A DNA stretch of 64,000 nucleotides, from the NCBI GenBank assembly GCA_011503125.2, contig WWBZ02000033.1:124001-188000 (forward strand), written 5' to 3'. The stretch is from Botryosphaeria dothidea (lineage: Eukaryota; Ascomycota; Dothideomycetes; Botryosphaeriales; Botryosphaeriaceae). Positions 38,848 through 62,822 of the stretch are shown in pieces. A program made the translations under genes and the position numbers. The notes beneath the pieces were generated by a model. That model had not been told where the DNA came from. It worked only from the letters and a program-made list of their open reading frames with translations, and did no database searches. The first letter of the stretch is position 1. Each line of letters begins with the position of its first letter.

Positions 38848-41120
38848 ATGGCCAACCCTGCTTCCATGACGCCTCCAAATGGCAACTTGAGTCTCCGCGA
38901 TGAACGAGTCGACGCATTGGAAAAGCGTCTCGAGGCGCTGACCCTGCAGCTATCGAAGCTGTCGGGCGCTCCCGCTACGCCGAGTTTTGCGTTGAAGAAG
39001 TTCGAGCTCGAGAAGCGCCGCCCGACGCCACCGCTCACCCCTCCCTCGCCTGCGGCCAGCGACGCCAGCAAGGGTGTTGTTGAAGACCCGATCAAGCCGT
39101 TTGAGCAGCTCGACCAACCCCCGGTCAAGAAAGCCCTCGCCATCCTCGACATCGTCCAGAGGTACGGGCAGAACAGCTCTCCCTCGGACATCCCGTGGGC
39201 CGGCAAAGCCAGGTTCCTTCCGTGCGTTGAGGCTCAGGTCAAGAAGTCGGAGCCCATTCGCATGGTGTTACCCGCGTTCCCGTTCAAATCGCCAAACAGA
39301 AAGAACAAGGTGCTCGGCGCGCTTCCAGACTTGGGCGAGGAATTGGCACTGCAGCATCTGAACGGGCTCTGTGAGAGCATTCGGGAGATATACGAACCCG
39401 GCGCGAAGGTTTTCATTGCCTCTGACGGGCTGGTTTACAACGGTGAGTACGCTCTGAGACTTGCAGATGTCAGCCGCTGATCGACATGTTCCAGATCTTC
39501 TTGGCGTCAGCGATGAAGATGTGTGGGAGTACTCGGCTGCCATCCGGAGCTTGATCCAGGAGAAGGAGCTGCGCAACATTGAGACATATCGTCTTATTGA
39601 CCTCATCGGCAATCACGATGGTGAGCTGAGTAGGGAAAAGTACCTGCTCCACGCTGGCTGCTACCGCCGTGAGCTCGTTGCACGCTTCACTCCTCCAGGC
39701 CTCGACTGCCGCGAGGTGGTACGCAACGACAAGGATGTGTGCATGACCTACAAGGGCTATGTCAAGTTTCTGGGCAGGGACTTAGAGAACAGCCCTATCA
39801 GTCATGAGCCACGCAAGGATGGTCGCTCCAAGAAGCAGTGCAAGAGGCACATCGAGCGCATCGCGTATGACATGATTGGCCGCGGCAAAGTAAGTGGATG
39901 ATACAAAATGACCTGTGACAAAATGCTGACAGAACCACACAGGCGTTTGCGGTAGCCATTGATGCAAAGTGCAAGGACTTTGTTCGTCTGTCCATTCACC
40001 CTTCGACCGGCGAGACCAAGCTGTCAGTTCCTCTCATCCCACAGGAACGCGGCAGCCAGATCATGACTCCCTGGCACTCGTCCATTGCGGTCGGAGTAGA
40101 CGGATCTTTCAAGACGGTCCACGCAGAAGATGTCCGAGACACGCACGAGCTCGTATGCCGCAACGGGCGCCCGTACTGCTTCCGCGAGAAGTCGGAGCTG
40201 TTCGACTTTGGCTCGGCCAACGTCGAGTTTGAGCATCTGTACCCGTGTGGCCTCATCGTTCACGCGCACGGCAATCCATCGCTCCGCGATGTTGACGTCA
40301 AGAAGCTGCGGGCGCTGGCGGAGCTGCAGTCGCCTGTGGTGCTGCGCGGCTTCTCCGAGACAACCGACCGTGAGCTCTTCACCAGCAGGGCTTATGAGCT
40401 GGGCGAGGTGCAGGAGTGGACTTTCGGAGTGTTGCAATCGGTCAAGGATGCCGGTCGCAAGGATAAGATGCACAACAATGTCGTCAGCAACGAGGCTATG
40501 CCGATGCACTACGACGGCATGTTCAAGTTTGTTCCGCAGAAGGACGAGAACGGCAACGTCGTAAAGGACGAGCAGGGCAAGGAGGTCAAGGTGCAGAAGC
40601 CGCCGAAGTAAGTGGAGTGAACAAACAGAGGGCGCGTGAGCTGGCCGCTGACAATAGCAGGTTCCAGTACTTCACGTGCATCGCAACATCGGAGAAGGGC
40701 ACCGGTTACACGCTGTTCGCGGCGTCGCGGCTGTTCTTCAAGCACCTGCCGCACCCGTTCACGGTCGACCGACTGGAGAAGGCGACCTGGAGGATGGACA
40801 ACGACGGCTTTTGGGATGCCAAGATCAGCAACTTGCCACTGGTGGTGAGGCACCCGGTGCACAAGACGCCTTGCGTGCGCTGGCACGAGCCGTGGGGAGC
40901 GTCGAAGACGCAGTTCTCGACGTGCGAAATCACCATTGAGAACGACACGCAGGAAATCACTCAGCTGGTTGACAGCCTGCTGTACGACCGACGCGTGTGC
41001 CTGCGCTTCGAGTGGGAGCAAGGAGACATCCTTGTCAACGACAATGTGGCCATGCTGCACACCCGCACTGCCTTTACCGGCGACTCGGACCGCGAGCTGT
41101 GGAGGATCCACTTCGACTGA
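38848..41120 (+). CDS. Isocyanide synthase fused to a TauD-type dioxygenase
   Basis: Four exons: 38848-39442, 39495-39889, 39943-40607 and 40661-41120, giving 704 residues with every junction in frame. Residues of about 110-390 form a DIT1/PvcA domain, which in bacteria (IsnA/PvcA) and fungi converts the amine of an amino acid into an isocyanide. Residues of about 400-704 form a TauD/TfdA Fe(II)/2-oxoglutarate dioxygenase. The H-x-D iron ligands are His519 and Asp521, the distal His is His685, and the 2-oxoglutarate Arg is Arg700, so the dioxygenase looks active. The first 60 residues are coiled-coil-like. In bacteria the two activities are separate proteins. The fused order is that of the xanthocillin synthase XanB. 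It is the likely core enzyme of this cluster. The substrate is inferred to be Tyr or Trp; sequence alone does not decide. Confidence 0.92.
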
Positions 41121-41351
41121 CGGACGGAAGGGATTGCCTGTAGATAGAAAGCCAGACTGGACATTCGTAGGCGCTACGAATCGATTGTTTTGGGACAAGA
41201 CGATGCCGGTGACAATGGTGATGGAGAGGAAGAGGACTTGACACTTCGTGATTGGAACGAGGGCATCCGATGCTTAGTCATGTTGCGGGCGAGGCCTCCT
41301 CTGTCTCGGCCGTGCCGTGCTCAGCAGTGCCTCGGTGCCTTCTGACAAACC

Positions 41352-43407
41352 ATGCAAGCCGCCCAACAGCCGCATCCGCCGCGCACGTCGCAAGCCTGCC
41401 GCCATTGCAGGAGCCTCAAGGCGCGCTGTCTTCCGAGCGGCGAGCCCGGCACCTGTCAGAGGTCTGTTCTCTGTCCCGACACTCTGCCCTCGGCGTGACT
41501 GACGCGTGCATCCGCGCTGGAGATGCCTTGGCCTCACGCGTAAGTGTTCCTGGCCCGAGCCGCGCCCGCGGCCCAAACGCCCACGCACCTCGACCTCGCG
41601 CATCTCTCACGTCGAAGAGAAGCTGGATGGTCTTGTAGCGCTCCTGGGAACCGCCAGGCATGAGAACGCGTCACCCGCGCCGGATCAACCCTCTCAACCC
41701 ACACCGAACCACAGCTTTCATCGTGATTCACCTCCTCCGGTGACCCTCGAGAGTCCCAGAAGCGAGGATGCTGCACCTGCGCCCATCGAAGAGACGCAGC
41801 TGAGCCCACCTCCGTCTCTGGTGGAAGAGGGCACGCTGCATGAGTTTCGCAGCCTGTCGAGCTTCTTTCCGTTTGTCTACTTGCCGTCCGATGCTACTGC
41901 TCACGCTCTACGTACCCGGCGGCCTCATCTCTTCCAGGCTATCCAGCTCGTCACAAGCTCAACCTCCCGTCCCTTGCAGGTGGCGCTTGAGGAACAGTTT
42001 CGAAGGGCCATTGCTGAGAGTATGTTCATGGAAGCCCAGAAAAGTCTCGATGTGCTACAGAGTCTCGAGGTGTACCTTGCTTGGTACCATTTCCACTTTA
42101 AGCCTCAAAGCCAGCAAATCTACCAACTGCTGGGCCTTGTGGTCTCTATGGTCATTGATCTTGGATACCATTCCCAGAAAAGACGGGCACGCATTGACAT
42201 TTCTGGGTCTCACTCGGATCATCCGATCGGGTCTGCTGAAGAGCGAGAGATTCAAAGAGCCTTTCTTGGATGTTACTATCTATCATCTGCGTGCGTGCTA
42301 ATCTGATCCTTGAAGGCTGACGCTGACTCCTTGTTAGTTTTGCAGGAGCTCTGTCACGGCCAACTCTTTTCAAATACACCGATTACATGACCACGTGCGC
42401 CGAGCGGCTTCAGAGAGACGCAGAAACGGCTTCCGACATCACGTTGCCGCACATCATCAAGCTTTGCCGGCTCAGTGAACAGATGAACGACCTACTAGCG
42501 TCCGCAGACTCCTCGTGTAACTCTCGAATGCAGATGCATATTGATGTGTTCAAGACCAACATACAAGAGTGGAGGCAACGCGTCGCCTCCACAGAATGCT
42601 CAATTGGTCTGTTGACTTAACAATTTCCATGGCTCCTCTCTGACATTGTTCACAGGTATCGAACTCGCACGTCATTTCGCCGTCATGGAACTGCACAGTG
42701 CAGGCTTGAACTCGGACCCAAGCAACGAAACTCAGCCGCCCCCACCAGAAAAGACCGCATTTTCGGACAATATGTTCTCGTGTCTCGACGCTGGCAAATC
42801 ATTCCTCGACGTTATATTGGAGTGCTCACTGGACCAGTATCGAACATTCTCCTTCGTCGAGTGGATGCGCCTTCCCGTCGTTCTCCTCAACATCGCCAAG
42901 CTTTCATTCGAGAACGACCGCTTCGCGGCTGCCGGATGGGACCCGCGCACCGCTCGCTCCCACGTACGTCTGGACCTCTATCTGGAGTCTCTCTGTTACC
43001 GCATGCAGTCTCTCACAACCTTTAACCCGCCATCCCAACCCTATCCAGACTTTTTTCTCTCGCTGAAAATGATTCTCGAGCGCACTCGGCAGTGGTATGG
43101 GCGAAGTACGAAGCCACCACCATCAGCCACTGGGCCTGCAACGAGCAATGTTTCTGGACAAACTGATGATAGCCCGCTTGAGCATATTCAGGATCCGCAC
43201 GAGACACCGCGCAGCAACACCTCTCCGCAGGTTACGCAGCACGCAACTGGAGGAACAAGCCATGCATCGGAGGGATTCGACCTTTCGGCTGGCGGTATTA
43301 ACTCACTGCAAGATATCAGCGCTATGGATGACTCTACCGCATTTCTGACCAATGACTTTTGGGAGTCGATCATGTTTGGGGACTTGGATTCTGGCCGTGC
43401 TCTATGA
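41352..43407 (+). CDS. Zn2Cys6 transcription factor with fungal-specific domain
   Basis: Four exons: 41352-41461, 41523-42290, 42338-42606 and 42656-43407 (632 residues). The first intron splits the zinc cluster. After splicing the ligands are Cys16, 19, 26, 35, 38 and 45, an exact C-x2-C-x6-C-x8-C-x2-C-x6-C binuclear cluster. A basic linker (R-P-K-R-P-R) follows. The middle region contains the fungal-specific transcription factor domain, with its S-S-A-F-A-G-A-L-S-R-P block around exon junction 2/3 and a Y-H-S-Q-K-R-R-like segment before it. The C-terminus is Ser/Pro/Thr-rich and acidic, as in activation domains. It begins 230 bases after the isocyanide synthase and converges on the MFS relic. 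It is the likeliest pathway-specific regulator besides the bZIP. Confidence 0.9.
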
Positions 43408-43456
43408 ACAAAACAATGGCATTGGCCACCGCCTTCGACTCCGTCAGGAACAAATC

Positions 43457-45237
43457 TCATCTACCGTGTGTGTCCACCCTGGCGAGAAAGGTCAAGATGC
43501 CTGCGACACCAAAGCACGCCGCTATGCCCCAGAATACCAGCATTGGAGCCGAGTCAGCTGTCCAGGAATACACTGCAACAACCCGTGCCAAGGACTGAAG
43601 AAAGCCCAAGGCCCCAAGGAGTTCTCCGGTCTGCGCATGCCCTACCGGCTTTGTCATGCTTGCTTCCGAAGTAGCCAAGCCGATCGCACCCAGCGCAGCG
43701 ACAGCGCCAGACGTCGTGAACAGGGGCCCGATCGGAGCGAGCGCATAGCCGATGTTTCCGATTACATCCGACACAATGGACACCCTGAGAAGGAGCACGT
43801 CGAGCGTGCCTAGTGTGGGCTCCTCGGGATCTTCCTTTGCTGGAGCATAACGCGGTGTAAAGTAGCGGGAGAACTTGACCGCGTAAGGAAGCACTGCAGC
43901 CGTCGATACCGCGCGACAGAAGTTGGCAGCGGAAAGAAACGTTCCACTCTCCATATTAACCCATCCGAAGACGAACTCGGAGTACAGCATGAGGACGTTC
44001 ATTGCTCCCGTGAAAGCCCCGAACATGACCACGTCCACTGCCGCCAAGACAATGACGTTTCGCCGAGTCTCTGATCTCAGGTGCGATGGAGCGAGACCTT
44101 GCAGTAGCTTTCGTGAACAGAGGTCGTCAAGCAGCGATTTGGACCATCTCCGTTGTTCTGCCAGACTTTCGGGAACGCAAGTGGCCAGGATGAGAATCCC
44201 TACGACTCGCATCATCTTCTATCTTTTAGAAGAACAATAAGAAACACAGGGAGGAACAACTTACAAGCGCGACGTAGAATACGAGCAATGGCTTTTTTTC
44301 GTCACCAACAGTCGCCAAGTAGCCACCAAAAGCGGGACCGGCAGACATGCCGAAAAACACCTGAGAGGACCATCAGCATTCGCTGCAGGAGATCTTCTGT
44401 ATCGACTTGCGCTTCCGTGGAGCCATCCAAGAGCCTTCATCCTGTCATCGCTGGGCGTGCAGTCCGATGCGTACGACGAGAGCAATGCCATGAGCGCGAT
44501 GAATGTGCCGCTAATCATTGTCAGCTCGGCGGCCTTCATGGAAGATGTTGCCTACTTGCCTAAGCCCCTCCAGGGAAGAATGATCCATAAATCCACTGGT
44601 ACGAAAGGCGATCCGGCATCGTGGCGACTACGAGCACACAGATCTCCGATGCCAGTATCAGCGTGCTCACAGCTGCTAGCGGCTTGATCCGGCCAAACCT
44701 GTCGCTCATCTTTCCCCATATCGGAGCGGTGACGGCACCCAAGGCGCTAGCAACCAGGTTCCCCCAGAGGGTGATCATTGCTGTTGCTGATTCAATCTCA
44801 CCAAACGAGCATTGCGGATTGTACTCCCCGATCATTATGGCGGATGGGTCCATGCTCATGTCGTCCGTGGCTGTGAAGGTTTGGCTAGTGTGGCTCAGGA
44901 CACCGCCATGCCGTGGGGAAAGCTGCTGGTCGCCGAAAGCGCTGGGACCTCCATTCGACTCATGCTGCGACAACACTGAGCGGCACACGAGCGAGACAAT
45001 TACGTTGGTCCTTGGCATCGCCGTGGCGCCCATGGCAAGATTGAACAGGATAACTGATGGTAGAAGCCAAAGAACCTGCGGTAACTGTGAGTCTCGTCCA
45101 TACTGGAACTTTTGTTGTCTGGGGTTTCAAACAGAGGGACGATTGAACCATGTTATGTTGCCCTTCAACGCAACATCTTCTTCTACATCCGATGTTTCGC
45201 CTGCCGCAACTCTCTGGTAACGGTAAGAAGCACTCAT
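43457..45237 (-). pseudogene. MFS transporter with a +1 frameshift and two GC-AG introns
   Basis: Five exons are traceable: 45237-45133, 45084-44560, 44510-44411, 44360-44265 and 44215-43457. They code a typical 12-helix DHA1 exporter, with W-G-K-M-S-D-R-F-G-R (motif A) in exon 2 and a C-terminal domain ending at 43457. The introns at 44559-44511 and 44410-44361 begin GCAAGT and end AG, the accepted GC-AG class; the others are GT-AG. The exon lengths sum to 1585, one base too many. The conserved segment changes frame at a CCC run near 44586-44588, just before an E-G-L motif, and the original frame meets TAG at once. So it is either a recent pseudogene or an assembly error of one base. It would have been the cluster's nearest exporter to the synthase. 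Confidence 0.78.
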
Positions 45238-45770
45238 GTTGTAGCGATCAATTGCGGTGTGGAGAAAGAGGTGGGAGCCCTAATGCAGAATGAAATACCT
45301 CGTCTGCAACGCTGTCGTGCGAGAGATGACCGCAGTCAGCACACTTGAGGTAAGTAGCTGCCGCTCGACCGCCGGCTCGGGTCACAATCCTGCAGTCCGT
45401 GCCGGTATCCCTCGTTCCCGGCCCCCACGTGGGAAGCTGAGGCTGAACCCTTCGAGCGGCACGGAAGGATGCATGCAGGTTCTCCCGCCCCACCGGAGCT
45501 GCGCCCGCACGTTACTATGCTGCGGCCCACTTTTGCAGGCAGCTACGGGCCGCGCGTAGTCTAATGCTAATCGTTGCTCGCTCAATCATTGACACCAACC
45601 CCAAGGCTTCGGACTTTGCCGCGATTTGACATCACATTTCGACTACATGATCCTTCTCACGCCATTTTTTCCCTGCACCTCGGATTCGACCCTCCTTCCT
45701 CCTTCCTCGCATCTCCGCCGGTGTATCTGCAAGCCGTCCTGAGTGCTGCCCAGCCACAGCTTACTATCGC
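45238..45770. promoter_or_regulatory. Upstream region of the MFS relic
   Basis: 533 bases between the MFS start and the 3' end of the P450. It holds a perfect 10-base palindrome CCCACGTGGG at 45424-45433, a G-box that bHLH or bZIP factors could bind. Nothing else seen. Confidence 0.4.
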
Positions 45771-47457
45771 CTATTGCTTGCCTGCTTCCTTTTCCAGTTC
45801 CTCTATGATCACCTTACATCCGAGAGGCGCCAGTATGCCGCCCTGTCAAGAGTTAGCGACCCCTCGGCTTTGGCAATGAATTCACACGGCAGTACTTACT
45901 GAAGTCAACTTGAGCTTGTAGCTTGGATCGATGTGCCACTTGACGCGGCGAACGAGCTCAAACATGGCCAGCTTCATCTCCAGGATGGCCCAGCTCTGGC
46001 CCAGACACTTGCGAGAGTGGCTGTTGAAGGCAATAAAGTTGCCCTTGATGGTCTCCTTGCGGGACTTCGTCATGACGTCTTCGGCCTTATGGCCCCATCG
46101 CTCGGGCACGAAATCTCGGGCGCTGGGACCCCAGACCTGTGGATCAGTCTGGACTCCCGGCGCGTTCCAGCCGACCCATGTTCCAGCGGGGATTTCGATG
46201 GCGTCTGCAAGCCGCGACGGCTGTAACGAAACGCGGTTGATGAGCTGCGAAACGGGCGGGTATACACGGAGAAGCTCCATCACGACTGCCGTCAGATACG
46301 GCAGTTTGTTGACTGTCTCGGCAGTCGGCGTGGTCACCCCCGTGGCGAACACCTCTGCCCTCAATTTGTCTTGGATATCCTGTGGGAGCGATCAACATCT
46401 CAATGTGTGTCTATCACGGGAGAATCCTCTTACCTGGGTTTTCCCGAGCTGCCAGAACATCGAGTTCATAAGCTGTTGATTGTTTTCATGGGCCGTCAGA
46501 AACACGATTTTCAGATTTGCACGAAACTGGTCTTCGTTTATTCTGCCTTCATCAAGAGCGCTCTCCAGCATGTGTACGACAAGCTCGTCTTCCGGAGGCA
46601 CGGGCTCTTTTCTCTCCAGCTTCCGCGGTCGGTTCCGGACCAAGTGGCACAAGAGATCCTCAAACTCCTTCATGAGAGCAAACGCACGGCGCCTGGAAGT
46701 GAAAATGTATGGGTACTGGTCCAGCGTGGGGAAGTTAAAGAAGAGTGGCTTGAAGATTGTCCTTTTGATCAATGTCTGCAGCTGTTCAATGCAAACACTG
46801 GGGCTCTCGAGGCACTATGTCTGCAGTCAGCAAATTCAGCCGCACAAAGCCGTCAATCAAGATCGGACCTACTCCAAAATCGATGTCCAAGAAGCTTTCT
46901 CCCATGACGGCAATAGTGAAGCGCTGAACCAACGGATTTACCAGGATTCCATCGAGGCTTTGGCTTTTGCTGCGCTCCTGCAATAGCAGGTCAACAAACT
47001 TCCGCGATTTTTCAAGAATTGGTCGCGTATCGAAGTTTTGTTTCTGGAGTCCTGGCTTCATGATCGCAGTGTACAGCTTCCAGGTGTCGCCGTGCGAGTT
47101 GATGATGTTGTCACCAACCAGTGAAGCAATGACGCTCCACGGAATCTTCTTCTGGCTACCGGCTTTTGCGTAAACATCTTCATTGCGGAGCATTTCCTTG
47201 AGGTATTCTGGCCTCGTAAACAAAAGGTTCCACCTGCCGGCAAACCAAATCTTCACGGCACCATGTGTCTCCAGCGGTTCCCTCAGCCACTTGTCGTATA
47301 TTTCGTCTTGGCCCATATCTGACCATAGCCCAAGAAGGCTGATGTATATGGGTACGGATGGGATGCCTTTCGGGAGGCTACTGGGTATACGGACGTACAG
47401 GTAAAGTAAGCCGGCCAAGACCAGCGTAAGGACTTTCAAAGCAGTAAGAAAAGCCAT
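45771..47457 (-). CDS. Cytochrome P450, DIT2/XanG-like
   Basis: Four exons: 47457-46873, 46814-46434, 46379-45900 and 45842-45771 (505 residues). The N-terminus is a membrane anchor (residues 4-22) followed by a proline-rich hinge. The K-helix E-x-x-R is Glu357/Arg360 (E-L-L-R) and the P-E-R-W motif is 414-417. The heme loop is F-N-S-H-S-R-K-C-L-G with Cys447. Note His443 where the consensus F-x-x-G-x-R-x-C-x-G has Gly. The N-terminal half has the pattern of DIT2-type P450s (A-V-K-I-W-F-A-G-R-W-N-L-L then V-Y-A-K-A-G-x-Q-K-K-I-P). DIT2 couples formyl-tyrosines in yeast, and XanG dimerises tyrosine-derived isocyanides in the xanthocillin pathway. It shares a 978-base divergent promoter with the bZIP gene. 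Oxidative coupling of the isocyanide is inferred. Confidence 0.9.
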
Positions 47458-48435
47458 TGCGTCTGGAAAATCTGTGCTGATTGCAGACCAAGCCGAACAA
47501 CCAAAACCGTTTCATACCGACTTCATATCGTCCTGCCATACTCTCGTCGTTATTCAGCGATGGCAACTTGCGTTATTCAGCGTTATCAACTTTCCTTCTG
47601 AGAGTAGCTCATCCATATTGTTGTTGGGTGCGATGTGCCGTTGGAAAAGGTGTGCAACACTCCTTAGCGCAGTCAGGTAAGCTTACAGTATTCATCACAT
47701 TAGGCAAATCAGCAGATCTCGTTTGCCTTGTGTCATATACCAGATTTGGGATTGGAGAGAATCCTTCGGGGGGGGGCCGGAAATACCTCCAGCGAGGAGT
47801 TCCTTCAGCTCCCACAGGCTAAGCAACGCCATGCCTCGCTTACCGTAAGCATCAACGCCCTTCATCGCTTACTCAAACGAAATGTGAAGACTTCGCGTCA
47901 CCGGAGCAGCGGCTCCAAAATGGGCGACCGTTCCCGGCACTCGCTCAGCCCCAAGTCACCATCCCTAGGTCCCATTCCTCCTATCCGCGCTCTCGGTATG
48001 AAATCCCAACTGCAGGCGCCCACGGCCTGGCACCCACGGCCTTCCTACTGGCCAGGTCCTGGGGAAGGGCCCACAGACTCCGATTCGCCTTTTTATTCTC
48101 CACCTCCCATCGCGTTCACTAGCGTCTCGATAGTCCACCCTCATCCTTCTTTGGGACACTGTGCCTCCTAGCCGCAGCCGTCGAGGATGTTTCTGGAGCT
48201 GACATCGGTGGGGTTCTCACAGGCTGAAGGCAGGGCGATCGCGCCACCCACACGGAAACCAAGACCCTGGCTGGAGCCCCTAGATCCATGCAGAAAATAG
48301 TATATATGTATTGCGGGTTAACACGACGGTGGTGCCACTACAGTTCTTCAACAGCTCGTGCGACTCGGCGCTAAGCCTTATCTCTTCAAATTTTCCCCAG
48401 CTCCTTGTACAAATCACAGCCTTAGTGCCATCAAC
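47458..48435. promoter_or_regulatory. Divergent P450/bZIP promoter with two GTAAGC/GCTTAC palindromes
   Basis: 978 bases. A 10-base perfect palindrome GTAAGCTTAC lies at 47677-47686 and a 13-base inverted repeat GCTTACCGTAAGC at 47838-47850. Both contain TTAC/GTAA halves of the kind bound by Yap/AP-1 bZIP factors, and a bZIP gene is next door. A TATATA box is at about 48300-48307, 130 bases before the bZIP start. A G-run lies at 47769-47777. Short open frames inside show no recognisable protein. Confidence 0.5.
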
Positions 48436-49482
48436 ATGTCGGAGAGGCCTGCTAGCCCGGCTGCTAAGCGATCCCGGGTAAACTCGAAGAGCGGGACCCC
48501 GAAAGACCCCGCTGAAGAGCTTTCCGAAGTAGCAAACTTGATTGAACGAAGACGCATGCAGAACAGAATCTCACAGAGGAACTATCGTACGTAACGCCAC
48601 ATCGCACAATGTATGGTGATTTTTAGTCTTGTTGACGCCATGCAGGGAACAAGATCAGAGTACGGCTCGAGAAGCTTGAGGCAATGGTCGACTCTCAGAA
48701 GAAGGAGCAGCTGCTGCAGACCGCTGAAAAAGAAACTCAAGACTCGGCTGTGCATGACGCGGACATGCAGAACGGCTCCACACCTGCGCAAAACTCCTCC
48801 ACATCGACCCCACATTTCATGAACAAAGACTCATCGAAGCTGAGATTTGAAAGCAGCCTGGACAACTGCGACTTCTGCCTTGAACCCAGTGGGGCGGAAC
48901 TTTGCCAATGCCCGCAGATGCGATCGTTCCTCTCCGCACACTTTCCTGATGGGGATCCTTCGTCTGCTACAACAGACTCTTCAAGCTTCCAGTACATAGA
49001 TCCGATGGAGCTTCTTGACCTGCCGTCTCCCATAATCCAACAGCCGCAGCCTCCCGCGCCCATGATCCCCACAGTAAACAACTTGAAAGGAGAAGACGGC
49101 AACAATGGTGTTCGAGACAACGTGCATACTCCGTCCGACCCGTCGCCTCTCACTCCGCCCCTTGTTGAATCTAGCAGTCACACCAGGCAGTCCAGTAATC
49201 CTTCGCTCCCGTTCCCGCTTTCGAGTCCGATGTTCCCTATGTATCCCGGTGCGTATCCAAAATTAAAAAGGCCTCACGTGCTCCAATTGAGACTTCCATC
49301 CAGGTACACCCTACCCGAACGGCATTCAATACAGCGCTCCGGGTCCGCACCATCATGGCCAATGCGTCTTGGTCCCAATGATGGTCATGAATGTCTCTCC
49401 AGGATTCATACCCCAGGGCCACGAGCACAATAGTGCTTCACCCACATGTGGTAGATGTTCGTCAGAAGGAGCAGAGCAGTGA
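48436..49482 (+). CDS. bZIP transcription factor, Yap/AP-1 type (XanC-like)
   Basis: Three exons: 48436-48586, 48646-49248 and 49304-49482 (310 residues). The first intron interrupts the basic region. After splicing it reads E-R-R-R-M-Q-N-R-I-S-Q-R-N-Y-R, with Asn43 and Arg51 in the N-x7-R spacing and the Yap-type N-x-x-(A/S)-Q-x-x-(F/Y)-R signature. The zipper that follows is short. The middle has a C-x2-C ... C-x-C segment near residues 115-130 and Pro/Ser-rich stretches. I place a second intron at 49249-49303: ignoring it would give a shorter, unrelated C-terminus, while splicing yields a Met/His/Pro-rich tail ending in C-G-R-C. The xanthocillin cluster is governed by a bZIP (XanC), so this may be its counterpart. 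Confidence 0.85.
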
Positions 49483-49550
49483 CACTTATAAAACCAATAG
49501 TATTCTTTCATGATATTCCGTAGTTCCATCCATATCATTCCTTCTCGTTA

Positions 49551-51044
49551 TTACTGTAGGGCTGCGTTGATTTTCCAAAAAAGGATTAGAGCAACGGTAG
49601 AAATGAACTTGAAAGCAGTCCTGATCGAAGACACAAAGGCCATCCTGGTTTAGCTCGTCAGCTCGTGTTGATCCGATTTGAAACAGAGACAAGTAGACAT
49701 ACCAAGGCGAAGGCCAAAGCTCTTCAGGCAACGGCGCCATCATCAACGAGGCAATAAACATGGCAAAGCCAGGACTCTTGTTCAGCATGTTGAAGAAGTC
49801 TTCACGCTCCGCCACGACTTTCGGGTCTGTGGAGTGTATGCGCAGCTTCCCTGCAATGGTCTGTTTCTGAACCCTTTGTATAAAGTCCTTGCGTCGGACG
49901 AACGCATACTTGTTCAGCAGGCTGGACCACTGCGCAGAAGTCTCGGGAGCCAAAGCTGCCGGGAGGACACGTGTGAGGACGGCTACATCGACGAGGCCCG
50001 TGGTGAGGCCAAGCGCCGTTAACGGATTGTTGATCTGTTCTGGTCAGCCACTGATGATATCGTCGGGTTGGTGTCTCACATGCGCAGCATCACCACACAG
50101 CGCAACCCTGCCGGCCCGGAACGTCCGCGCCACTCTTTCATGAGCCCAGTACGGGCTGATAGCCTCGATCTCGTACTTCAACGGCCTCGGTCCCGGCATT
50201 AAGCGCTCCAGCTTCGCGACGACGTACTTCTCGATCTCGGCGGGTGGCAGCTCTGGCGGAATGCCCGTTGCCACGCGCCAGAGGCCCTCGTCAGCGCGGC
50301 TGGCGCGCACCACGACAGCCCAGTCTTGCGGGTCAACCACGTGGTTGGCGGCCGGGTAGCCGTGAGCGGCGAAGTCGTAGCGGATGTTGACCGCCACGAA
50401 GCGCCAGTCCTCCCACGTGAAGCCCTCGAACGGGATCCCCGCTGCCTTGCGGACCGATGAGCCCGCCCCGTCGCAGCCGATGACGAAGCGCGCCGACAGA
50501 TGCAGTAGTTTCTCGTTATTATCGTCTCCCTCTGTTGTCATGGCATCGACGTGGGCGAAGTCGGCGTCCTCCTGTAAGCTTAAGAAGCGCGTTCGATAGC
50601 GGAGAGAGAAGTGAGGGTTCGCGAGTGCGTGCTTGCGGATGATAGCGGTCAGCTTGGGCTGTCCCAGCTGCACACCGTAGTCTATTGAGCCCTGTGGCGC
50701 TTTTCCGGGCGGGATCTTTGCGAGAACTTCGTTGCTGCCGCAGAAGGGCGTGCGGAAGCAGAGGCCTTCGCTGTTCTTGAAGCCCGCTGCAACCACATCT
50801 TCCAAGATGCCCACTTTCTGAAATTCATTCAGCACGATAGGGAAATTCCTGTTTCGCAACTTATTAGCTCGAGTTCTTGAAGATATATGGTGGGGATTAC
50901 AGACATGAGTGCCCTTGGGCTTTGCACTATATCTCTCTCGGCTTCTATAACAACAACATCGATGCCCTTTTGAGCCAGTGTCAATCCCAGAAATAATCCC
51001 ACAGGGCCTCCGCCCACAATGGTAACGTCGTGTGTCTCATGCAT
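49551..51044 (-). CDS. FAD-dependent aromatic-type monooxygenase
   Basis: Four exons: 51044-50905, 50848-50080, 50034-49703 and 49644-49551 (444 residues). It carries the three group A flavoprotein hydroxylase motifs: G-G-G-P-V-G at 11-16 in the N-terminal Rossmann fold, the C-D-G-A-G motif (Asp173-Gly174), and the second FAD motif G-D-A-A-H at 299-303. That last motif is split from the following I-N-N-P by an intron. The last exon encodes a hydrophobic helix of about 20 residues at the C-terminus, suggesting a membrane tether. The family (PF01494) hydroxylates or epoxidises aromatic and polyketide substrates with NAD(P)H and O2. It converges on the bZIP gene with 68 bases between. It is a likely tailoring enzyme whose target is unknown. 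Confidence 0.85.
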
Positions 51045-51555
51045 TGTTGCTTATGACTTTCACGATTTCGGTCTTGATCTGCGTGGGAAAGGAAGAAAGC
51101 TCCCGTATGCCGGCTCTTTATGGGACAGAAACCCGAATAAACTACACTTTCCGTATCTCCATGGATAATTATAATGGGCCCCGTGTGTAACTACAGTATG
51201 TGTCAGGTTATAAACACAATGTGCGGTCAGCGCAGTAAGCGGGCTGATCTGCGTCAGCAGGATCCCGCAAAAAGCACAAACGAGGGAAATTGAAAAATTC
51301 AGAACATTCCGTGCCACGCTAAGGCTGAACACGTCCAATGGCCTCTGTTTTTTTTTTTTTTTTTTTTTTGAGCGGTTCTTTGGTTCATGAACAGGTTCTA
51401 AGGCAGGGCAGTACAGCGAAGACAATATAAACGGGGTGAAGATCTTGAAGTATCATGATTCCGTCCGGCAGTACATGTTCACATTAAGTATAGAGAAATT
51501 TAAGAAAAATAAACGTGAAAATAATACAGCAATATTCAACTTCCTCCGCTACTTC
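51045..51555. promoter_or_regulatory. Upstream region of the monooxygenase
   Basis: About 510 bases between the start of the monooxygenase and the 3' end of the reductase. It contains a 22-base run of T at 51348-51369 and a GTAAGC half-site at 51235-51240. No gene. Confidence 0.4.
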
Positions 51556-52667
51556 TCAAATGTGTACGTGCACCTTCTTCTCCGGCACTCCTCCGCTGCT
51601 ATACAAATCCAACACACTGTTGATCTTCTCCACATCAAGCCCATCGATAATCTCCCACGGAGTGGCCCTGATCTTTCTTTTCTCCATCCAGCCGGGGAGA
51701 TTCTTCCAGAAAGCTGCGCCGAGCTCTGGTTGGTTGTGGCTTTGTCCCTGGATGAACTTGTCCTCGTAGCCTGCCTTCTTATCACCGATGACATTCTCGT
51801 CGATCTTCGTCATTGGTGGAACCAGGCATGCGAGCGTTCCTTTCTTGGTGTCAGAAAGGATGGAGACACCAAGGGTGTGATCCGTGTTGACGGCGTCTAC
51901 TGCGTAGACCAGATCGTCTCCCACGATGCTGCGTATCTGTTCCTTCACATCGGCGGCATGTCTATCGACGACATGAGTTGCACCGTACGCACGGAGGAAG
52001 TCGTCGTTCTTCGACTTGTTGGCGGTTGCGACGATGGTGCCAAAGCCAGCGAGGGCGCAGCTCTGCACGGCATACTTGCCGCAATTGCTGCCTGCACCGA
52101 TGATGACGATCTTCTGCGAGGCGTAATCAAGAGCGCTCACGCTCTGGCCCGGAAACGGGAACTGAAGGCCCAAGCCATCCTTGCCGAAAACTGCCCAAAA
52201 TGGGGCAATGATGTTGCAGACAAGCGAGGCGCCGTCATCATCACTCAGCTTCCCGGGAACCCGCGCAGCCGTGTAGGCGTCTAAAAGGGCGTACTCTTGC
52301 AGGCCGCACTGATCCGATGTCGCCTTGAGGTAGTTTGTCTGACCAAACACGCGGTCTCCCTTTTGGAAGCTCGATACGCCAGGCCCGGTCTCCTGGACGA
52401 CACCAGCAATGTCGTTGCCGAGCACCACAGGAAGGCGACCTTCGACGTACAGACCCCAGTCGCGGACTCTGAAGTCGTAGGGGTTGACTTTGCCGGCCAA
52501 TCAGCTTTTATCACAATTTCAAATTAAGGGTCGTACTTACGTCCTGCGACCGTCACTTTGACAAGAATTTCTCCCTCTTTCGGGGTGGGGACCGGCCTCT
52601 CCGTCAGCACGACAGGTTGACCGACCTTCTCCACCACCACGGCATTCTGCATTTCGAGGGGTGCCAT
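51556..52667 (-). CDS. Medium-chain dehydrogenase/reductase (ToxD/enoyl-reductase-like)
   Basis: Two exons: 52667-52541 and 52487-51556 (352 residues). An N-terminal GroES-like domain carries A-G-L-N-P-Y-D near residue 41 (created by the splice) and L-G-N-D-I-A-G-V-V near 65. It is followed by a nucleotide-binding fold with G173-x-G175-x-x-x-G179. The usual catalytic zinc Cys and His/Glu ligands of alcohol dehydrogenases are not evident, so it belongs to the zinc-free branch that includes trans-enoyl reductases and ToxD-like proteins and uses NADPH to reduce activated double bonds. It is transcribed away from the SnoaL-like gene from a shared 299-base promoter. In this cluster it may reduce a vinyl or quinonoid intermediate (inference). 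Confidence 0.85.
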
Positions 52668-52966
52668 GCTTGGGAGTTCTCAAATTGGGTGCCACACCGA
52701 GATCGAATACGATGCTTTTTATTCAGCCCAGGTACTGTCACGTTGCGTGTGTGAGCAGATCTGACTGTGCTCACCGGCCCGGCCCGCGGGCAGATGGATG
52801 TGCTCAGTCACGTCAGCACACAACACGTACAGTAAGAACGAAATCGCATCCACCTCGCAAAACTCACCGATAAAACTCTCTCCACGGATGCGTCTTGAGC
52901 CTGCACGCTGCTCACTGCATTCGCCCCTCCGTTCCTCCTAATCAACTCACACACTTGCTCTTCACC
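52668..52966. promoter_or_regulatory. Shared promoter of reductase and SnoaL-like genes
   Basis: 299 bases between divergent start codons, suggesting co-regulation of the pair. It is GC-rich in the middle and no TATA box is obvious. Confidence 0.4.
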
Positions 52967-53543
52967 ATGGGGGCGGATACGAGCTCAGCTGCTGCAGCCC
53001 CATCCTACGGCACGCTGGAAGCCAAGTTCCGCGACTACCTTGCAGCTTGGAATTCGCACGACATGGACGAGTACCTGAAGTACTGGGCTGACGATTTTCA
53101 TTTCCATTTGCCCGCATGTCCGCCGGTCCAAGGCAAAGAAGCCGTGAGAAAGCTGCTCAGCTCGGGCCTCGGCGTCTATCGGGAAACGTTGCACCCCACC
53201 TTCCTCTCGTTCGGAGACAGGAAGGTTGCATTGGAGGCCAAGGGACACATCGAGATGCTGCAAGATCTGCCCTTTCCCTTCCCGTTCGATGGGAAAACGT
53301 ACAAGAAAGGAGATAAATTCGTTTATCCGATCATGTACGTTGGCGGCGCCCTCCTCGCAATGTCTGACATACTGACGCAACAGAAGTGTCCATTACGAAT
53401 ACGATGACGATCTTCTCATCAAGACTTTCCGGTCTTTCGGCCAGGTTCTTACCCCTGGTCCTGGGGAGGGTGTTAAGCAGGAGGTTCTCCCCGGGTTTGA
53501 CCCGATTCCTGAAACTACCATCACTGCAGTGGCCCAGATTTGA
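52967..53543 (+). CDS. SnoaL-like (NTF2-fold) protein
   Basis: Two exons: 52967-53334 and 53384-53543 (175 residues). The start ATG lies in the strong context CACCATGG. Residues of about 15-150 match the SnoaL/NTF2-like fold: the opening helix F-R-D-Y-L-A-A-W-N-S-H-D, then Y-W-A-D-D-F-H-F-H-L-P, G-K-E-A-V-R, and the final strand V-H-Y-E-Y-D-D-D after the splice. Members act as small cyclases, isomerases, dehydratases or just binding proteins, so the reaction cannot be read off. There is no signal peptide. It pairs with the reductase across a bidirectional promoter, which suggests it works on the same intermediate. Confidence 0.82.
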
Positions 53544-54047
53544 CGAGATGAATGGTATATTACAGTCCGAGCATTTAACATATTGGAGGATTAGCAATAC
53601 TAGCAATCAAGAGTCTGTGGCATCTTCAAAAAAAAAAAGACAACATCATCCATACGACAATGAGTGATGTGAGTAAAATGCTGGCCAGTAGTTCGCGTCG
53701 TCATGCGTAGTAGGATGCACCTACCCAGATCCAGTAGCATCTATTGAATGACACTCATGCGTATTCTTCAGTTCAAACTTGATGGGCAAAAGCTTTCCTT
53801 CTATTCAACAGATATCGCAGCAAATTTGAGCGCCGCAAGATCACATGTCACTTCTAGTGCAACAAGCTCAACTACCGTGAGAAACTCAAGCATAATCATT
53901 CAACAGCCACTTCCATTCTTGTGAATGGAATCCCAGACACCGCGAAACCCTGTCACCACCAAAATTGGATTCCGATCAATCTCAGACTGACATTTTAGTA
54001 GTCGATCTCCGCTTGATCTATTGGCCGATCTTTCCGCAAATATGCCC
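53544..54047. other. Intergenic between converging genes
   Basis: About 500 bases between the SnoaL-like gene and the methyltransferase, with an A-run near 53627-53638. Nothing else supported. Confidence 0.5.
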
Positions 54048-55523
54048 CTACTGAACCGTCGCTTCATCACCCTGCCACACAGCTTCAACAATGGAAAGAA
54101 CACTCTCAGGCAAAGGCTTGACCCCGACAAAGCGGAAGCGAGGGTCAGCATCGGCAAAGACGCTCTTCCACATAGCTAGAGAGCGCTCTCGAGAGCCGAT
54201 GAGGTTCAGCAGATGCAGATCACAAACCCTGTTGCAATTCAAGTCAGACCATTGTACGGACTGGGTCATGGAGAGCGAAAACCATACCTCATCTGCCTGT
54301 ACAGCCGGTCAAAGGTCTCGTTCGGCTCCGGCAGCACAATGTCACAAGCCATGACACGCGCACCCTTCTTCAGACCGGGCACGGTGGCCTGCAGGATCTT
54401 GACGCACTCCTCGTGCGGCCAGTCGTGGAAGATGAAGCGGAAGAAGTAGACGTCGGCGCCTTTGACGGGCTGGGGCTGGAAGAAGTCGTGCTGCATGAAC
54501 TCGAAGCGGCCTTTGTAAGCCTCGTCCAGCGCTTCTTCACCTCTGGCGAGCTCGTCCTGGTTGAAGTCCTGCACGATAAACTTGGGGATGTTGGACCCGC
54601 TGGCGATGGTGAGAGCGGTGTGACCGAGCGAGCCTCCGACCTGTTTGGAAGAAAACATTCAGTCTGCGAATTTGACGCTTCGGATGCACTCATTGCTTAC
54701 GTCGACGAATACTCCAGCTTCGAGCTCGTCCCACGCGTATCCTGACTTCAGCGACGCTCCACTGAATGGTCCGGCGGCGTCTGAAGCTTTCATCGCCGCA
54801 TGGAATCGCTCGGATCTGGCTGGGTCCTTCTTCAAGTAGTCGAAGAACGGCTCAGTGGTGTTGTGTGCAAGGCCAAAGGAAGTTTCCAGCATCGGCTTCT
54901 GGGGTGTAGGGTGCTTCTTCAGACTTTCGACGAGCTTGGCCGTGGCGGGGAAGACATCATCGATCACACTGCCGACCACATCCTTGGGGCCAGTGGGCAT
55001 GCTGAGCAGAGCTGAGGCACCTGTGTGCGAGGCAAAGCCAGGTCGGATCTCCTTGAAGATGCCGCTAGTGGTGGCGAGGCGGATTATACGGCAAACGCGG
55101 TCTTCGTCAAGGCCAACCGCTTTGGCAATTTCACCGAAGGAAGCCTCCCCGTCCAGGGGAACCTGCGAGGCCATGTCGAACGAGTAGATTGCATGGAGAC
55201 ACGCAATTTCGTGACTCTGCATCATCATCTGTCAGTCGAAAGTTGATTTTCCGTCGTCTCCAGTTTGATCTTACTGTAGTGGCAAGGGTGAACAGTGTCT
55301 CAACAGGTCCCAGAGCAAGACGGATGAGCTTGTTAGCTGTGTCAATCATTCGCTCGCGTGCAAGATGAACTTCTACAGCCTTTGGCGGTGCTGGGAATCC
55401 GAGCGGGCCTCCAGGAGCAAATGTCGGCCTCGGGATACCGCCCGCATTTGTGAGGAACTTTTCGAGAATCTCGGCATTATCCGAGATTTCGGATGCCAGG
55501 TCGGTGAACTTGGGTGTTGCCAT
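54048..55523 (-). CDS. SAM-dependent O-methyltransferase (XanE-like)
   Basis: Four exons: 55523-55275, 55228-54701, 54640-54288 and 54228-54048 (436 residues). An N-terminal dimerisation/winged-helix part (about 60-190) precedes the methyltransferase fold. Motif I is F-V-D-V-G-G-S-L-G-H at 257-266, with the exon 2/3 junction inside it. The F-H-D-W block places the catalytic base at His331. The C-terminus has the N-L-I-G-S-R-E-R block common to fungal OMT2-type enzymes. An in-frame ATG eight codons upstream (55547) is also possible. This class methylates phenolic hydroxyls. In the xanthocillin pathway XanE does this to the tyrosine-derived phenols, and the same role is inferred here. Confidence 0.88.
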
Positions 55524-55959
55524 TGCGAAAGGATAGTGATTATGCAAAGCGTTGAATGTTGGAGTTACTCGTCACGATGCACTCTTAAAGGTTTCACCAC
55601 AACAGTCGCCGGGTTGCCAGTGAGTGTGCAGTGTGCGGATATGCTCAGTCAGCCACAGAACGCAGCCGTTGCTGCCAGGGCAAATCTGAGTCGGAGAAAT
55701 TCGGTGATAAGCTGACTCGGGTGTGATGACACGGTTATCATCACACAAGCGACCCCGAAGCCAGGTCCTTGATCCTTCCGCGCTGTTGCCTGAGCTGCTG
55801 ACGGTGTTTCCGACGCGCATGGCACGTGACCGGCACGGCATCCAGCCTTATCTCCCGTGCCGGGTGCCTCTTCGTTCATAAAGAATTCTGGCGATCAGTC
55901 ACCTCCCAAACGCCCTACAGACAGCTAATCATCCTCAAAGGCTCTTGGTATTTCTGATC
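55524..55959. promoter_or_regulatory. Divergent methyltransferase/exporter promoter
   Basis: 436 bases shared by the methyltransferase and the DHA2 exporter, with one CACGTG at 55823-55828. The divergent layout suggests joint regulation. Confidence 0.4.
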
Positions 55960-57902
55960 ATGACAAAGAGCGCTGAATCATCTACTTGCGCGGACGGGAT
56001 TTCATCCCGGGACTCGAGGAATGCTGAGATGCAGGTAAACCCCCTTGCAAAATTGTCCTTTCTCTAGCTGCTCACACTTTTCAGACTCCGGAAACAGAAG
56101 AAGTCACGCGCTCAATTACCGGCTGGCGCTGGTGGCTTGTAGTACTTGGCGTGCTGTCGACCGCACTGCTATTTTCTCTCGACAACTCTATTGTCGCAGA
56201 TGTTCAGCCGAAAATCGTCGGCACCTTTGGCGATGTCGAGAAACTTCCCTGGTTGTCGGTGGCATTCGCGCTCGGAAGTGCCGCGACCACGTTGATATGG
56301 TAAGCCATCCCCACTTGAAGGGGAAAAACGTCTGTTCATGCCGCTTCCGGGACAGGGCGGCAATCTACACGGCTTTTGATGCAAAGTACAACTACATTGT
56401 TGCTGTCCTCTTATTTGAGATTGGATCTGCCATTTGCGGAGCAGCCAATATGATGGATGTGCTCATCTTTGGCCGTGCGCTTGCCGGACTTGGTGGATCC
56501 GGTCTATACGTCGGAGTATTGACTTTATTGTCCGCCCTCACCACACCAAAAGAGCGCCCTCTCTACGTGGCATCAACCGGTCTGATTTGGGGCTTGGGAA
56601 GTGTCCTTGGGTATGCCTTGTCTCGTTATTTCTGATTACAACCACTTGACTGACGAACTTTTCAGACCTATCATTGGTGGTGCTTTTGCAGACAGTCCGG
56701 CCACCTGGAGATGGTCATTCTACATCAATCTTGTAGTTGCAGCAGTGTTTGCGCCAGTATACGTCTTTATGATTCCATCTGTGGATCCTCAGCCAGGAAG
56801 ACCTCTGGCGGACAGAGCCATCAAATTTGACTTCAGTATGTTTTCCAGAATCACGGAGAATTATTCAGAAGCTCACATTCCTCAGTTGGTGCTATTCTCA
56901 TCATGGGCACTTTTGGCTGCGGCATCACCGGTCTATCCTTTGGTGGATCATCTTATGCTTGGTAAGTCTGATGTTTGATATTCAGGTGCAGTCCTTAACA
57001 GGTCTCAGGGACTCCGCGACCATCATTGTCCTGCTCGTCGTATCCGTTGTATTACTCATAGCCTTCGGCATCCAGCAAGTATGGTGTCTAGGAACAAGCC
57101 CCTCCGGCCGTTTGCTCCCCGTGCAGTATTTTGGAAACCGCACCCTCTTCCTCATGTTCATCCTCAACGCACTCGCCGCTGCACCTATTTTTGTGCCAGT
57201 CTACTTCCTGTCGCTATACTTCCAGTTCGCACGGGGCGATGACGCGATGGAAGCGGCTGTCCGCTTGCTCCCTTTCATGTGCATGGTCGTCTTCTTCTCC
57301 CTCCTCAACGGCGCCGCCATGGGGAAGAAGGGGTACTACGCGCCGTGGTTCCTTGTTGCATCGGCAGTCGCAGTCGCGGGCTCTACACTCATGTTCATTG
57401 TCGACGAGTTCACTTCAAAGTCGCGAATCTACGGATACTCGGCGCTTCTGGGAGCGGGTGCAGGCTCTATTGTCCAGACTGGCTTCATTGTGGCTCAGGC
57501 CGTTGTTCCTCGGTCTGAAATGTCTTCTGGTAAGCATCAGACTCCCATAAGCTCAAGCTTACGACACAAACTGACATAAATTCAGCTGTGGCATTCATCA
57601 ACCTGGCGCAGATTGGTGGCCTGGTGCTGTGTCTCACGTTGTCGAACAGCATTTTCCTCAACCTCGCCACAGGGTACCTGGCGGATGCTTTACCAATGGC
57701 TTCCAACAGTGATATTCTAGCTGCAATCTCGGGGACTGGCTCGGAGCTGATTGCATCAATGAGCGCAGACCTTCGTGGTGCAGCCATCAGCGCCGTGTCG
57801 AAGGCCGTTAGCAGGACTTACTGCTTGTGCATAGCCACCTCCGCGTTGCAGTTACTGTTGAGTTTGGCTTTGAAGTGGGAGTGCGTTGTATTGGAGATGT
57901 AA
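55960..57902 (+). CDS. MFS exporter, DHA2 (14-helix) type
   Basis: Seven exons: 55960-56034, 56085-56299, 56356-56610, 56666-56835, 56886-56961, 57009-57529 and 57586-57902 (542 residues, all junctions in frame). The first helix opens with W-W-L-V-V-L-G-V-L-S-T-A-L-L-F-S-L-D-N-S-I-V-A-D, the D1 motif of DHA2 transporters. A G-R-A-L-A-G-L-G-G-S-G motif follows helix 3. Motif C is P-I-I-G-G-A-F-A-D, and W-R-W-S-F-Y-I-N comes before helix 6. The family exports toxins and drugs by proton antiport, and members are common in fungal metabolite clusters. It is divergent from the methyltransferase and the only fully intact MFS exporter in the middle of the cluster, so it is the best candidate for product efflux. 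Plasma membrane inferred. Confidence 0.88.
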
Positions 57903-58046: not shown

Positions 58047-59813
58047 CTAGTCTTGAAACCTCGCCTGAACCTCCATGACAGACTTCCAAAGACGGTTCAG
58101 CCCTTCTTCCAATGCTGGTTTGCCTACCGTAATTGTGACTCTGAACCACCCGAATTCCTCTGGATTATATACATTACCAGGAGCAATCATCACGCCGTTC
58201 CGGATACAGGTCTCTGCAATTTCAAGCTCACACTGTTTGTAGGTGCTGGCTTCAGGAGATGTCACACTCAGTTCGCTGTGACTTGACTGCCGAGACGACA
58301 ACGTGGGGACGAGTAGGTGGCGGAGATCTACCCAGATGTACAAACCCGCATTCCTAAAGACTTGTTACGTCCATGTAGTGTATGAAGTATGAGGTTGATG
58401 AATTCTTACATTTCATAGTAGTTGATGCCATGATCCCGGAAGAAGGACGTTGCGATGCGGTAGTTCTCTTCCATAAGCTCACATTTCCTCAGCGTAAGAA
58501 TTTCTCATCCACTGCTTGTCTTCCAGCATGGCGGCCCAGACATCTTGGATAATGTGGGATGACCAAGAGAAAATGCTGATAACACGACCATTTAGAATGA
58601 GCCTTGCTTGTGAAAGGGAAGTACTGGTACTAACCTGATGCTTGAAATGGCGCCCATGATCCCCTCGTTCTTGGTACAAACAAACCCCAGACGCAAACCA
58701 TTGGCGCAGAAATCTTTGCTTGCACCGTAAAGAATATGCGTAAGAGCTGGATCAATGACATCGCGAAGATCAAGAGAGAGAGTGGAAATGAACGGCATTG
58801 GGATCGGGATAGCAGGATTCGAAAACACCGACTTTGCATAGATCTCATCGGAGATGAAATGCAGTCGGTTTCTACCGCAGAAAGAAGCAAATTCCTTGAG
58901 AGTCTCTGGGGGCTGGAATCCGTTGTCAGCTTCAGATGAGGAATAGGAGGAGCCGATTACGAACATAACATCTTCCTAAAGGATTGTGCGCGCTGGATCT
59001 CTACGTCAGTAAAGCCCGACGATTTTGACGCGGCAGGTAGAGAACGAACTTTGAGATCAAAAGAGCCTGAACAGTTATCCCGTCACCCTATGCTTTATTG
59101 AAGGCAGCCTCAATGGCTTTCCTGGTGACTTCAGGGTGGAATAGATCGTCGAGATCTGAGTATCCTTCTATTCCATTATATGGAACGCCAACCACTCGAG
59201 CGTTGCTTCGATTCAGGATATCAACATCGAACCCATTGTAGTATGGTTGTAGGACCAGAATACCATCTCCTTCGTTACAGATCACCCACGTCAGCGCATC
59301 TATGGTGCTTGCTAAGCCGGGCGTGATGAAGACGTTGTCGATAGTGATTGTCTCGCGAGATTGAAACTCATCGTTTAAGAGTTCAGGAACAGCACGCCGA
59401 AGACGACGCGATCCGCGTGGGCCCGTGCTATAGGTGAGATGCTCGATGGGTAGAGCGGTCGTCTATGCTCGCAATATGTGAGCAGATGAATCGTAAGATG
59501 CACAAGAACTGCTGACCCGTGAATTGATGAAGTCCACCATCTCTTCATGCATGAGACTGTTCTCGGCCAGACGAAGGATAACACTACCCGTGGTTAATAC
59601 TCTCGGACTAAAGATCAAGACGGAAAAAGAATGGACTCACGTCCCGTTGGCATTGGCTGGTGACCAAGGGTTGCCCATGGACTTTTCGCGTGGACCCCAG
59701 ACATCTCGATGTGTGAAGTGGATAGCCCCTCTATCTGATAAATGATGCCTGTCGATTGCCGTTTCGATATATCCTTCTTGCCCCGATGAGTGCATGCTGT
59801 TAAGGGCAACCAT
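58047..59813 (-). pseudogene. PLP aminotransferase (class I/II, ACC-synthase-like), disabled
   Basis: Seven exons can be traced: 59813-59641, 59583-59517, 59462-59050, 58992-58965, 58912-58635, 58575-58410 and 58353-58047. The protein has the fold type I pattern: N-P-W-S-P near the start, Y-S-T-G-P-R-G near exon 3, H-N-P-L-G-R in exon 4, D-E-I-Y in exon 5, and S-K-D-F-x-x-x-G-L-R-L-G with the cofactor lysine. Two lesions are visible. An in-frame TAG at 59088-59090 sits within the conserved stretch before the N-P motif. A one-base gain near 58498-58505 in exon 6 leaves the exon sum one base over (1432). The start codon is uncertain (59813 or 59795). Relatives include ACC synthase-like proteins and the C-S lyase GliI. 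Confidence 0.78.
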
Positions 59814-62517: not shown

Positions 62518-62822
62518 TGTAGCCAATATAAAATCGTGAGCCATTCAGAGCAGAGAGCGTTGCGTAGATTTGAAGTTGCCTCTTTCGCAAATGAGTTTAT
62601 GGATGGGAACGCAGTGAGCGGCGGCGTTTCAAGACCCGTCGTGTCCCAAAAAGGGAAAGCCCCGCGACGCCTTAGGCCGGTGCTAGCTCGATGGCAAAAG
62701 TTAATAACCTCGGTGTCTCGGTGTCTTGCTACGGGCGAAGTCTCGGTGTCTTGGCTGACGTGCACAACCTCGCCTTCATTTGCACTCTCGTCCCTCGCTT
62801 TTTCACAACATCGTGCGTGGTA
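62518..62822. promoter_or_regulatory. Upstream region of the right-hand regulator
   Basis: 305 bases. A CGGTGTCTCGGTGTC tandem (7-base unit CGGTGTC) lies near 62710-62726 and recurs as CGGTGTC near 62750. No TATA box. Confidence 0.4.

Follow-up and report, generated by a model that had tools for sequence, protein, structure and literature searches.

The window analysed here, 64,000 nucleotides of Botryosphaeria dothidea DNA (positions 124001–188000 of the 4.56-Mb contig C29, in an assembly of 51.7 Mb and 78 contigs), contains between its positions 38848 and 55523 an expanded isocyanide synthase (ICS) gene cluster, as an earlier note made from the sequence alone had observed. The interval encodes an ICS fused to a TauD-type iron/2-oxoglutarate (Fe/2OG) desaturase, a Zn2Cys6 regulator, a major facilitator superfamily (MFS) transporter, a DIT2-type cytochrome P450, a bZIP-like regulator, a FAD monooxygenase (FMO), a reductase, a SnoaL-like protein and an O-methyltransferase (OMT), and a second MFS gene lies just outside. 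The expansion of a xan-type cluster looks real and probably leads to a modified product, because FMO genes also sit close to synthases of this type in remotely related fungi. The explanation that we favour, with moderate confidence, is a co-regulated xan relative that makes 4-(2-isocyanovinyl)phenol and couples, oxidises, reduces and methylates it. A para-hydroxylase-type flavoenzyme would be a concrete extra step; its gene recurs on contigs with ICS-TauD synthases in Dothideomycetes, Geoglossum, Caeruleum and Fusarium, which suggests a class of isocyanides with possibly remodelled rings, and a published residue rule and a published promoter motif make the first steps and the regulation directly testable.

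The synthase fusion and its predicted product

The backbone enzyme is a 704-residue protein in which Pfam recognises both a DIT1_PvcA domain (4.5e-95) and a TauD domain (1.7e-24). Its solved relatives are PvcA and the tyrosine and tryptophan isonitrile synthases for the ICS half, and 7tcl and PvcB for the TauD half. Residues H519, D521 and H685 of the TauD half, which we take to be the 2-His-1-carboxylate iron ligands, align with 7tcl and PvcB, and the earlier description of a fusion with intact ligands is borne out by this alignment and by the two domain matches. The positions associated with product selectivity were located by numbering the residues aligned to 7tcl, which was taken as PIsnB since its numbering fits that given in excerpts of PMC9467999. 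In these excerpts, enzymes forming vinyl isonitriles carry Lys or Arg at position K107 and Asn or His at position N188, where PvcB-type enzymes have Leu and Cys. The TauD half encoded in the window places Lys at the first position and His at the second, the residues of a PIsnB-type vinyl-isonitrile former. Because of this pair the fusion is predicted to yield 4-(2-isocyanovinyl)phenol, in agreement with the two steps by which XanB is proposed to act in excerpts of PMC5974471. The likeness to PIsnB, as far as PMC9467999 describes it in those excerpts, thus covers the presumed iron ligands and both selectivity residues; PIsnB is, however, a stand-alone bacterial enzyme, whereas here the TauD domain is fused to the ICS.

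The fusion protein is 56% identical to an A. fumigatus homologue (row P0040) over 87% of the query. In a FastTree phylogeny of 105 rows (the window and 104 of the best 120 of 689 homologues, 16 having been dropped by length), the ICS belongs to a clade of 17 rows (SH 100) that is made up of Dothideomycetes, Geoglossum and lichen fungi and is separate from the Eurotiales XanB proteins, which qualifies the earlier equation of the synthase with XanB. Caeruleum branches just outside this clade, and the ICS of Fusarium is found with XanB when the tree is divided at its midpoint root. As a separate observation, the predicted proteins P0062 and P0064 (A. fumigatus) and P0063 (Emarellia grisea) unite ICS, TauD and DJ-1 domains and represent either genuine fusions or annotation mergers of adjacent genes.

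The characterised fungal isocyanide clusters counted in 2023 were three, xan, crm and dit (PMC10153163, in excerpt). With xan of A. fumigatus, as described in parts of PMC5974471 and PMC8406171, the cluster shares the ICS-TauD fusion, a DIT2-type P450, an OMT, a bZIP-like regulator and AGTCAGCA-like promoter sites. It differs in the clade of its ICS and in that no XanA-type hydratase was found on the contig, and it goes beyond xan in its FMO, reductase, SnoaL, Zn2Cys6 and MFS genes. The earlier interpretation stands as regards a xan-like isocyanide cluster, but is qualified as to the synthase, which is not a Eurotiales XanB, and as to the bZIP protein, which Pfam does not allow to be called XanC. 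An ICS together with a DIT2-type P450 is also shared with the dit1/dit2 clusters in the same excerpt of PMC10153163; membership of dit was ruled out, since the ICS of dit has one domain whereas this one is fused to TauD and accompanied by more tailoring genes. Membership of crm, whose backbone is an ICS joined to a nonribosomal peptide synthetase (NRPS), was likewise discarded because Pfam finds no NRPS-like domains in the backbone. The cluster may already be among those listed in PMC10153163.

The flavin monooxygenase and its linkage to isocyanide synthases

The FMO matches FAD_binding_3 (2.6e-49) and retains the FAD motifs. By sequence and by fold its nearest solved structures are PnpA (6ain/6aio) and HspB (7da9); the fold comparison was made on the predicted structure of the Geoglossum simile orthologue, which is 34% identical to PnpA and 31% to HspB. 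These two, which we take to be enzymes of breakdown pathways, are bacterial, whereas the FMO described here resides in a biosynthetic cluster. p-Hydroxybenzoate hydroxylase (PHBH) is far more distant in both sequence and structure. By analogy the enzyme would most likely hydroxylate the ring at the para position, where the side chain is attached, and the kinship makes more specific the earlier suggestion that the product is an oxidised or reduced relative of xanthocillin.

Gene content, the TauD ligands and selectivity residues, the kinship of the FMO, its linkage to ICS genes elsewhere and the motif enrichment in chosen promoters can be read from sequence, and from them we propose substrates, reactions and their order, a target for the bZIP protein and a cargo for the exporters. 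The ICS half would convert L-tyrosine to its isonitrile, from which the TauD half would remove CO2 with desaturation to give 4-(2-isocyanovinyl)phenol; the DIT2/XanG-type P450 would couple two such units. The PnpA-type FMO would then introduce a hydroxyl group into the phenol, most likely at the side-chain-bearing para carbon, giving a quinol- or quinone-like ring, and the zinc-free reductase may reduce the enone or quinone so formed. The SnoaL-like protein could catalyse an isomerisation or the addition or removal of water, the OMT would cap a phenol, the bZIP protein would bind AGTCAGCA-like sites, and the MFS proteins would export the product.

A possible but less probable course is that the cluster belongs to a widespread, undescribed isocyanide branch in which PnpA-type attack at the para carbon, reduction and a SnoaL step lead to a non-aromatic or rearranged ring and no xanthocillin core is made; the attack would either dearomatise the tyrosine-derived phenol or cut off the isocyanovinyl chain. 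A literature search returned no paper on an isocyanide with SnoaL in a fungal biosynthetic gene cluster, and no structure of darlucin was found in the portion of text available on that compound. Somewhat less likely still is PHBH-like hydroxylation ortho to the phenol, giving catechol-type xanthocillins that the OMT would methylate, with side roles for the reductase and the SnoaL-like protein; the much closer relation of the FMO to PnpA and HspB, in sequence and in structure, speaks against it.

Linkage of FMO and ICS was compared by eye between the best 120 of 689 ICS matches and the best 120 of 988 FMO matches. Seven named species occur in both listed sets, and in 5/7 the FMO and an ICS-TauD gene share a contig: G. 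simile (FMO M1840_007092, ICS M1840_007090), Fusarium musae (J7337_010048 and J7337_010053), Caeruleum heppii (M1817_000820 and M1817_000818) and, as judged from equal contig size alone, Plenodomus tracheiphilus (356963 bases) and a Phaeosphaeriaceae sp. (PMI808 in the FMO row, the name ending at 'PMI' in the ICS row; 783083 bases). A contig of 19,709 bases also seems, on the same ground of equal size, to hold both genes (P0090, P0171). Variospora aurantia and Usnochroma carphineum have FMO and ICS on separate contigs of 8–38 kb, too short to show linkage or to speak against it. The SnoaL-like protein has 6 homologue matches, among which the G. simile copy (tag 007082) is on the ICS contig, 8 tags from the ICS. 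No B. dothidea ICS is among the 120 ICS matches listed, and in that species SnoaL and FMO are two tags apart on one contig (SLS57_011257, 98% identical to the SnoaL-like protein with 100% covered, and SLS57_011259, 98% identical to the FMO with 88% covered).

The earlier note had held that the expanded cluster would be an accident of position if its monooxygenase, reductase and SnoaL genes were neither co-expressed with the synthase nor linked to it in related species. Such linkage was found for the FMO in 5/7 species and for SnoaL in G. simile, and on this ground chance placement of the two genes was rejected; it is unlikely given both the linkage in other fungi and the XanC-type sites in their promoters.

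In an FMO tree of 32 rows (31 of 36 chosen and the window, 5 having been left out for their length), the FMOs of the window and of B. dothidea form a group with the two from Fusarium (SH-aLRT 99), to which those of Geoglossum and Plenodomus do not belong. Pairwise identities to the window agree with the trees (F. musae: ICS 52.0%, FMO 71.0%; G. simile: ICS 66.8%, FMO 67.5%). Because the FMO and ICS trees conflict, these two quick trees suggest that the genes came together, or that one of them was replaced, on more than one occasion. The FMO-linked label is scattered over the ICS tree, with 5 changes for 6 labelled rows (37/500 shuffles were as low), although for most rows a missing label is no evidence against linkage. 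Fusarium and the Dothideomycete/Geoglossum lineage may each have joined FMO and ICS independently, which, if true, would argue for strong chemical coupling.

Promoter sites and the coherence of the cluster

The site bound by XanC in A. fumigatus is AGTCAGCA (PMC8406171, in excerpt). Apart from the exact copy in Table 1, a second one lies in an intron of the P450 gene (46825). Seven upstream regions (3935 bp) were chosen by hand, that of the ICS being cut at 37900 by choice, and 6/7 of them contain sites with at most one mismatch, 12 in total; the Zn2Cys6 promoter has no site at this threshold. Twelve sites were reached by 0/300 first-order random sequences and 0/300 letter permutations. Ten loci of the same genome, including four other ICS loci and two just to the right of the window, gave a background of 0.83/kb over 100 kb, from which 3.3 sites are expected versus 12 found (Poisson 1.6e-4); against this background 12 sites occurred in 0/200 permutations and 0/5000 random segment sets, and hits in 6/7 segments at a frequency of 0.0074. 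The cluster genes are probably co-regulated.

Two results weigh against the favoured explanation. When open reading frames (ORFs) of at least 100 aa were masked, a cruder control with few noncoding bases, no clear enrichment was seen (4 sites in 2717 bp, 1.47/kb, versus 0–1.42/kb in eight other stretches treated in the same way). The promoter evidence is therefore mixed, which slightly lowers our confidence. In addition, excerpts of PMC9467999 report that single mutations at the K107 and N188 positions of a related enzyme did not switch the product, so the residue rule is to be read as a correlate.

An ordinary xan-type pathway supplemented by the FMO, with the reductase, SnoaL and Zn2Cys6 genes as neighbours of other function, is improbable. 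It would fit the finding that linkage to an ICS extends over several species for the FMO and over one named species (G. simile) alone for SnoaL; however, the SnoaL and reductase genes, placed between FMO and OMT, diverge from a common promoter of 299 bp in which a CGTCAGCA site occurs, and the SnoaL and FMO tags of B. dothidea are neighbours but one on a single contig. A silent or decaying cluster, which the 32-kb block mutated by repeat-induced point mutation (RIP) about 7 kb to its left might suggest through poor expression of the region, is very unlikely, given eight fully modelled genes that are open throughout with canonical introns and the 98% identity of FMO and SnoaL to B. dothidea.

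Gene models, flanks and other loci in the genome

Gene models were built exon by exon for 8 genes, spliced with GT-AG introns of 45–61 nt, and the resulting proteins were scanned with Pfam; both MFS genes have rough exon models only (Table 1). All genes named in the earlier list were recovered; the two MFS genes, one inside the interval and one just beyond it, were missing from that list.

Table 1. Genes and putative regulator-binding sites in and beside the cluster (window positions)
Feature	Position	Strand	Basis
ICS-TauD fusion (isocyanide synthase and Fe/2OG desaturase)	38848..41120	+	4 exons, 704 aa; Pfam, solved relatives, homologues
Zn2Cys6/Fungal_trans regulator	41352..43407	+	4 exons, 632 aa; Pfam
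MFS transporter, approximate exon model	about 43457..45237	-	MFS_1 1.6e-14; exon pieces joined by eye
Exact AGTCAGCA	45334..45341	+	upstream of MFS gene
Cytochrome P450, DIT2/XanG type	45771..47457	-	505 aa; p450 4.4e-48
bZIP-like regulator	48436..49482	+	310 aa; basic region by eye
FAD monooxygenase, PnpA/HspB type	49551..51044	-	444 aa; hydrophobic C-terminal tail by eye
CGTCAGCA, one mismatch to XanC site	51252..51259	+	FMO promoter
Zinc-free MDR-type reductase	51556..52667	-	352 aa; Pfam
CGTCAGCA	52811..52818	+	divergent reductase/SnoaL promoter
SnoaL_2/NTF2-like protein	52967..53543	+	175 aa; Pfam
O-methyltransferase (Methyltransf_2)	54048..55523	-	436 aa; FHDW and VDVGGSLG kept
AGTCAGCC	55647..55654	+	divergent OMT/MFS promoter
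MFS transporter, approximate model, possibly at the edge of the cluster	about 55959..57902	+	C-terminal half matches MFS_1

The P450, in accordance with the earlier reading, is of DIT2 type: it shares 201/470 aligned residues (43%) with the P450 that accompanies another ICS of the same genome (L019), the comparison behind the DIT2/XanG label. The reductase (ADH_N 2e-16, ADH_zinc_N 2e-10) shows on inspection N-P and G-N-D where the Cys and His of the catalytic zinc site would presumably stand, consistent with the zinc-free enzyme described before. Pfam matches also agree with the previous naming of the FMO, of the SnoaL-like protein (SnoaL_2 2.5e-10), of the OMT (Methyltransf_2 2.9e-15) and of the Zn2Cys6 regulator (Fungal_trans 1.4e-8; Zn_clus 2.3e-4, 21.6 bits with a cut-off of 21, on the N-terminal 87 residues alone). 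The SnoaL-like protein has weak sequence matches to limonene epoxide hydrolase, and its predicted model (pLDDT 63.7, 6 sequences) is too poor for fold matches to bear on function. The nearest solved structures to the OMT are 7bqj, which we take to be the OMT-like pericyclase PdxI, and HpiI, presumably another; a pericyclase function was ruled out, as the OMT keeps GGSLG and also the methyltransferase His-Asp-Trp motif (FHDW), which is LHKE in 7bqj and HpiI. For the bZIP-like protein, a basic region is visible by eye, but the match to PF00170 (E=0.012) is below cut-off and Pfam does not warrant a Yap-type or XanC label. The C-terminal half of the outer MFS protein matches MFS_1 at 1.4e-6 (28 bits, under the curated cut-off of 33.4).

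The window sits 124–188 kb from one contig end, and its positions 1–32000 form the AT-rich block with strong RIP mutation (in 4-kb steps: TpA/ApT 1.74–2.05, substrate index 0.00–0.08, GC 0.29–0.35; outside it: 0.47–0.78, 1.20–1.37 and 0.50–0.57). The flank to the right of the cluster (58050–64000) encodes a class I/II aminotransferase (5e-20, joined pieces), a further MFS protein (1e-27) and a regulator with a Fungal_trans domain (3.4e-14).

The genome contains seven ICS genes (19 PF05141 exon matches, grouped by hand): the one in this cluster, three on C18 (two of them in tandem), two on C5 and one on C3. Locus L018 (G000:C18:3591000-3600999) has a second ICS-TauD-like open frame with a P450-like frame nearby; by eye its selectivity positions are Lys (HYDGLFK) and His (RYHE). 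Locus L017 (G000:C5:856500-866499) has two ICS genes near an NRPS-like gene with AMP-binding, PP-binding and NAD_binding_4 domains, and L019 (G000:C3:1005000-1014999) is a dit-like locus, where an ICS has a DIT2-like P450 and a gene of the DJ-1/isocyanide hydratase type in its neighbourhood. A six-frame search for this hydratase type (PF01965), which gives a lower bound, returned 5 genome matches, one of them beside an ICS (on C3) and none on C29, in keeping with the earlier remark that the window has no isocyanide hydratase. Self-protection could come from export, from a hydratase encoded elsewhere or from the chemistry of the product. Two of the DJ-1 matches (G000:C36:836454-836855 and G000:C69:1990401-1990802) are equal in score and length and possibly represent a duplicated assembly stretch.

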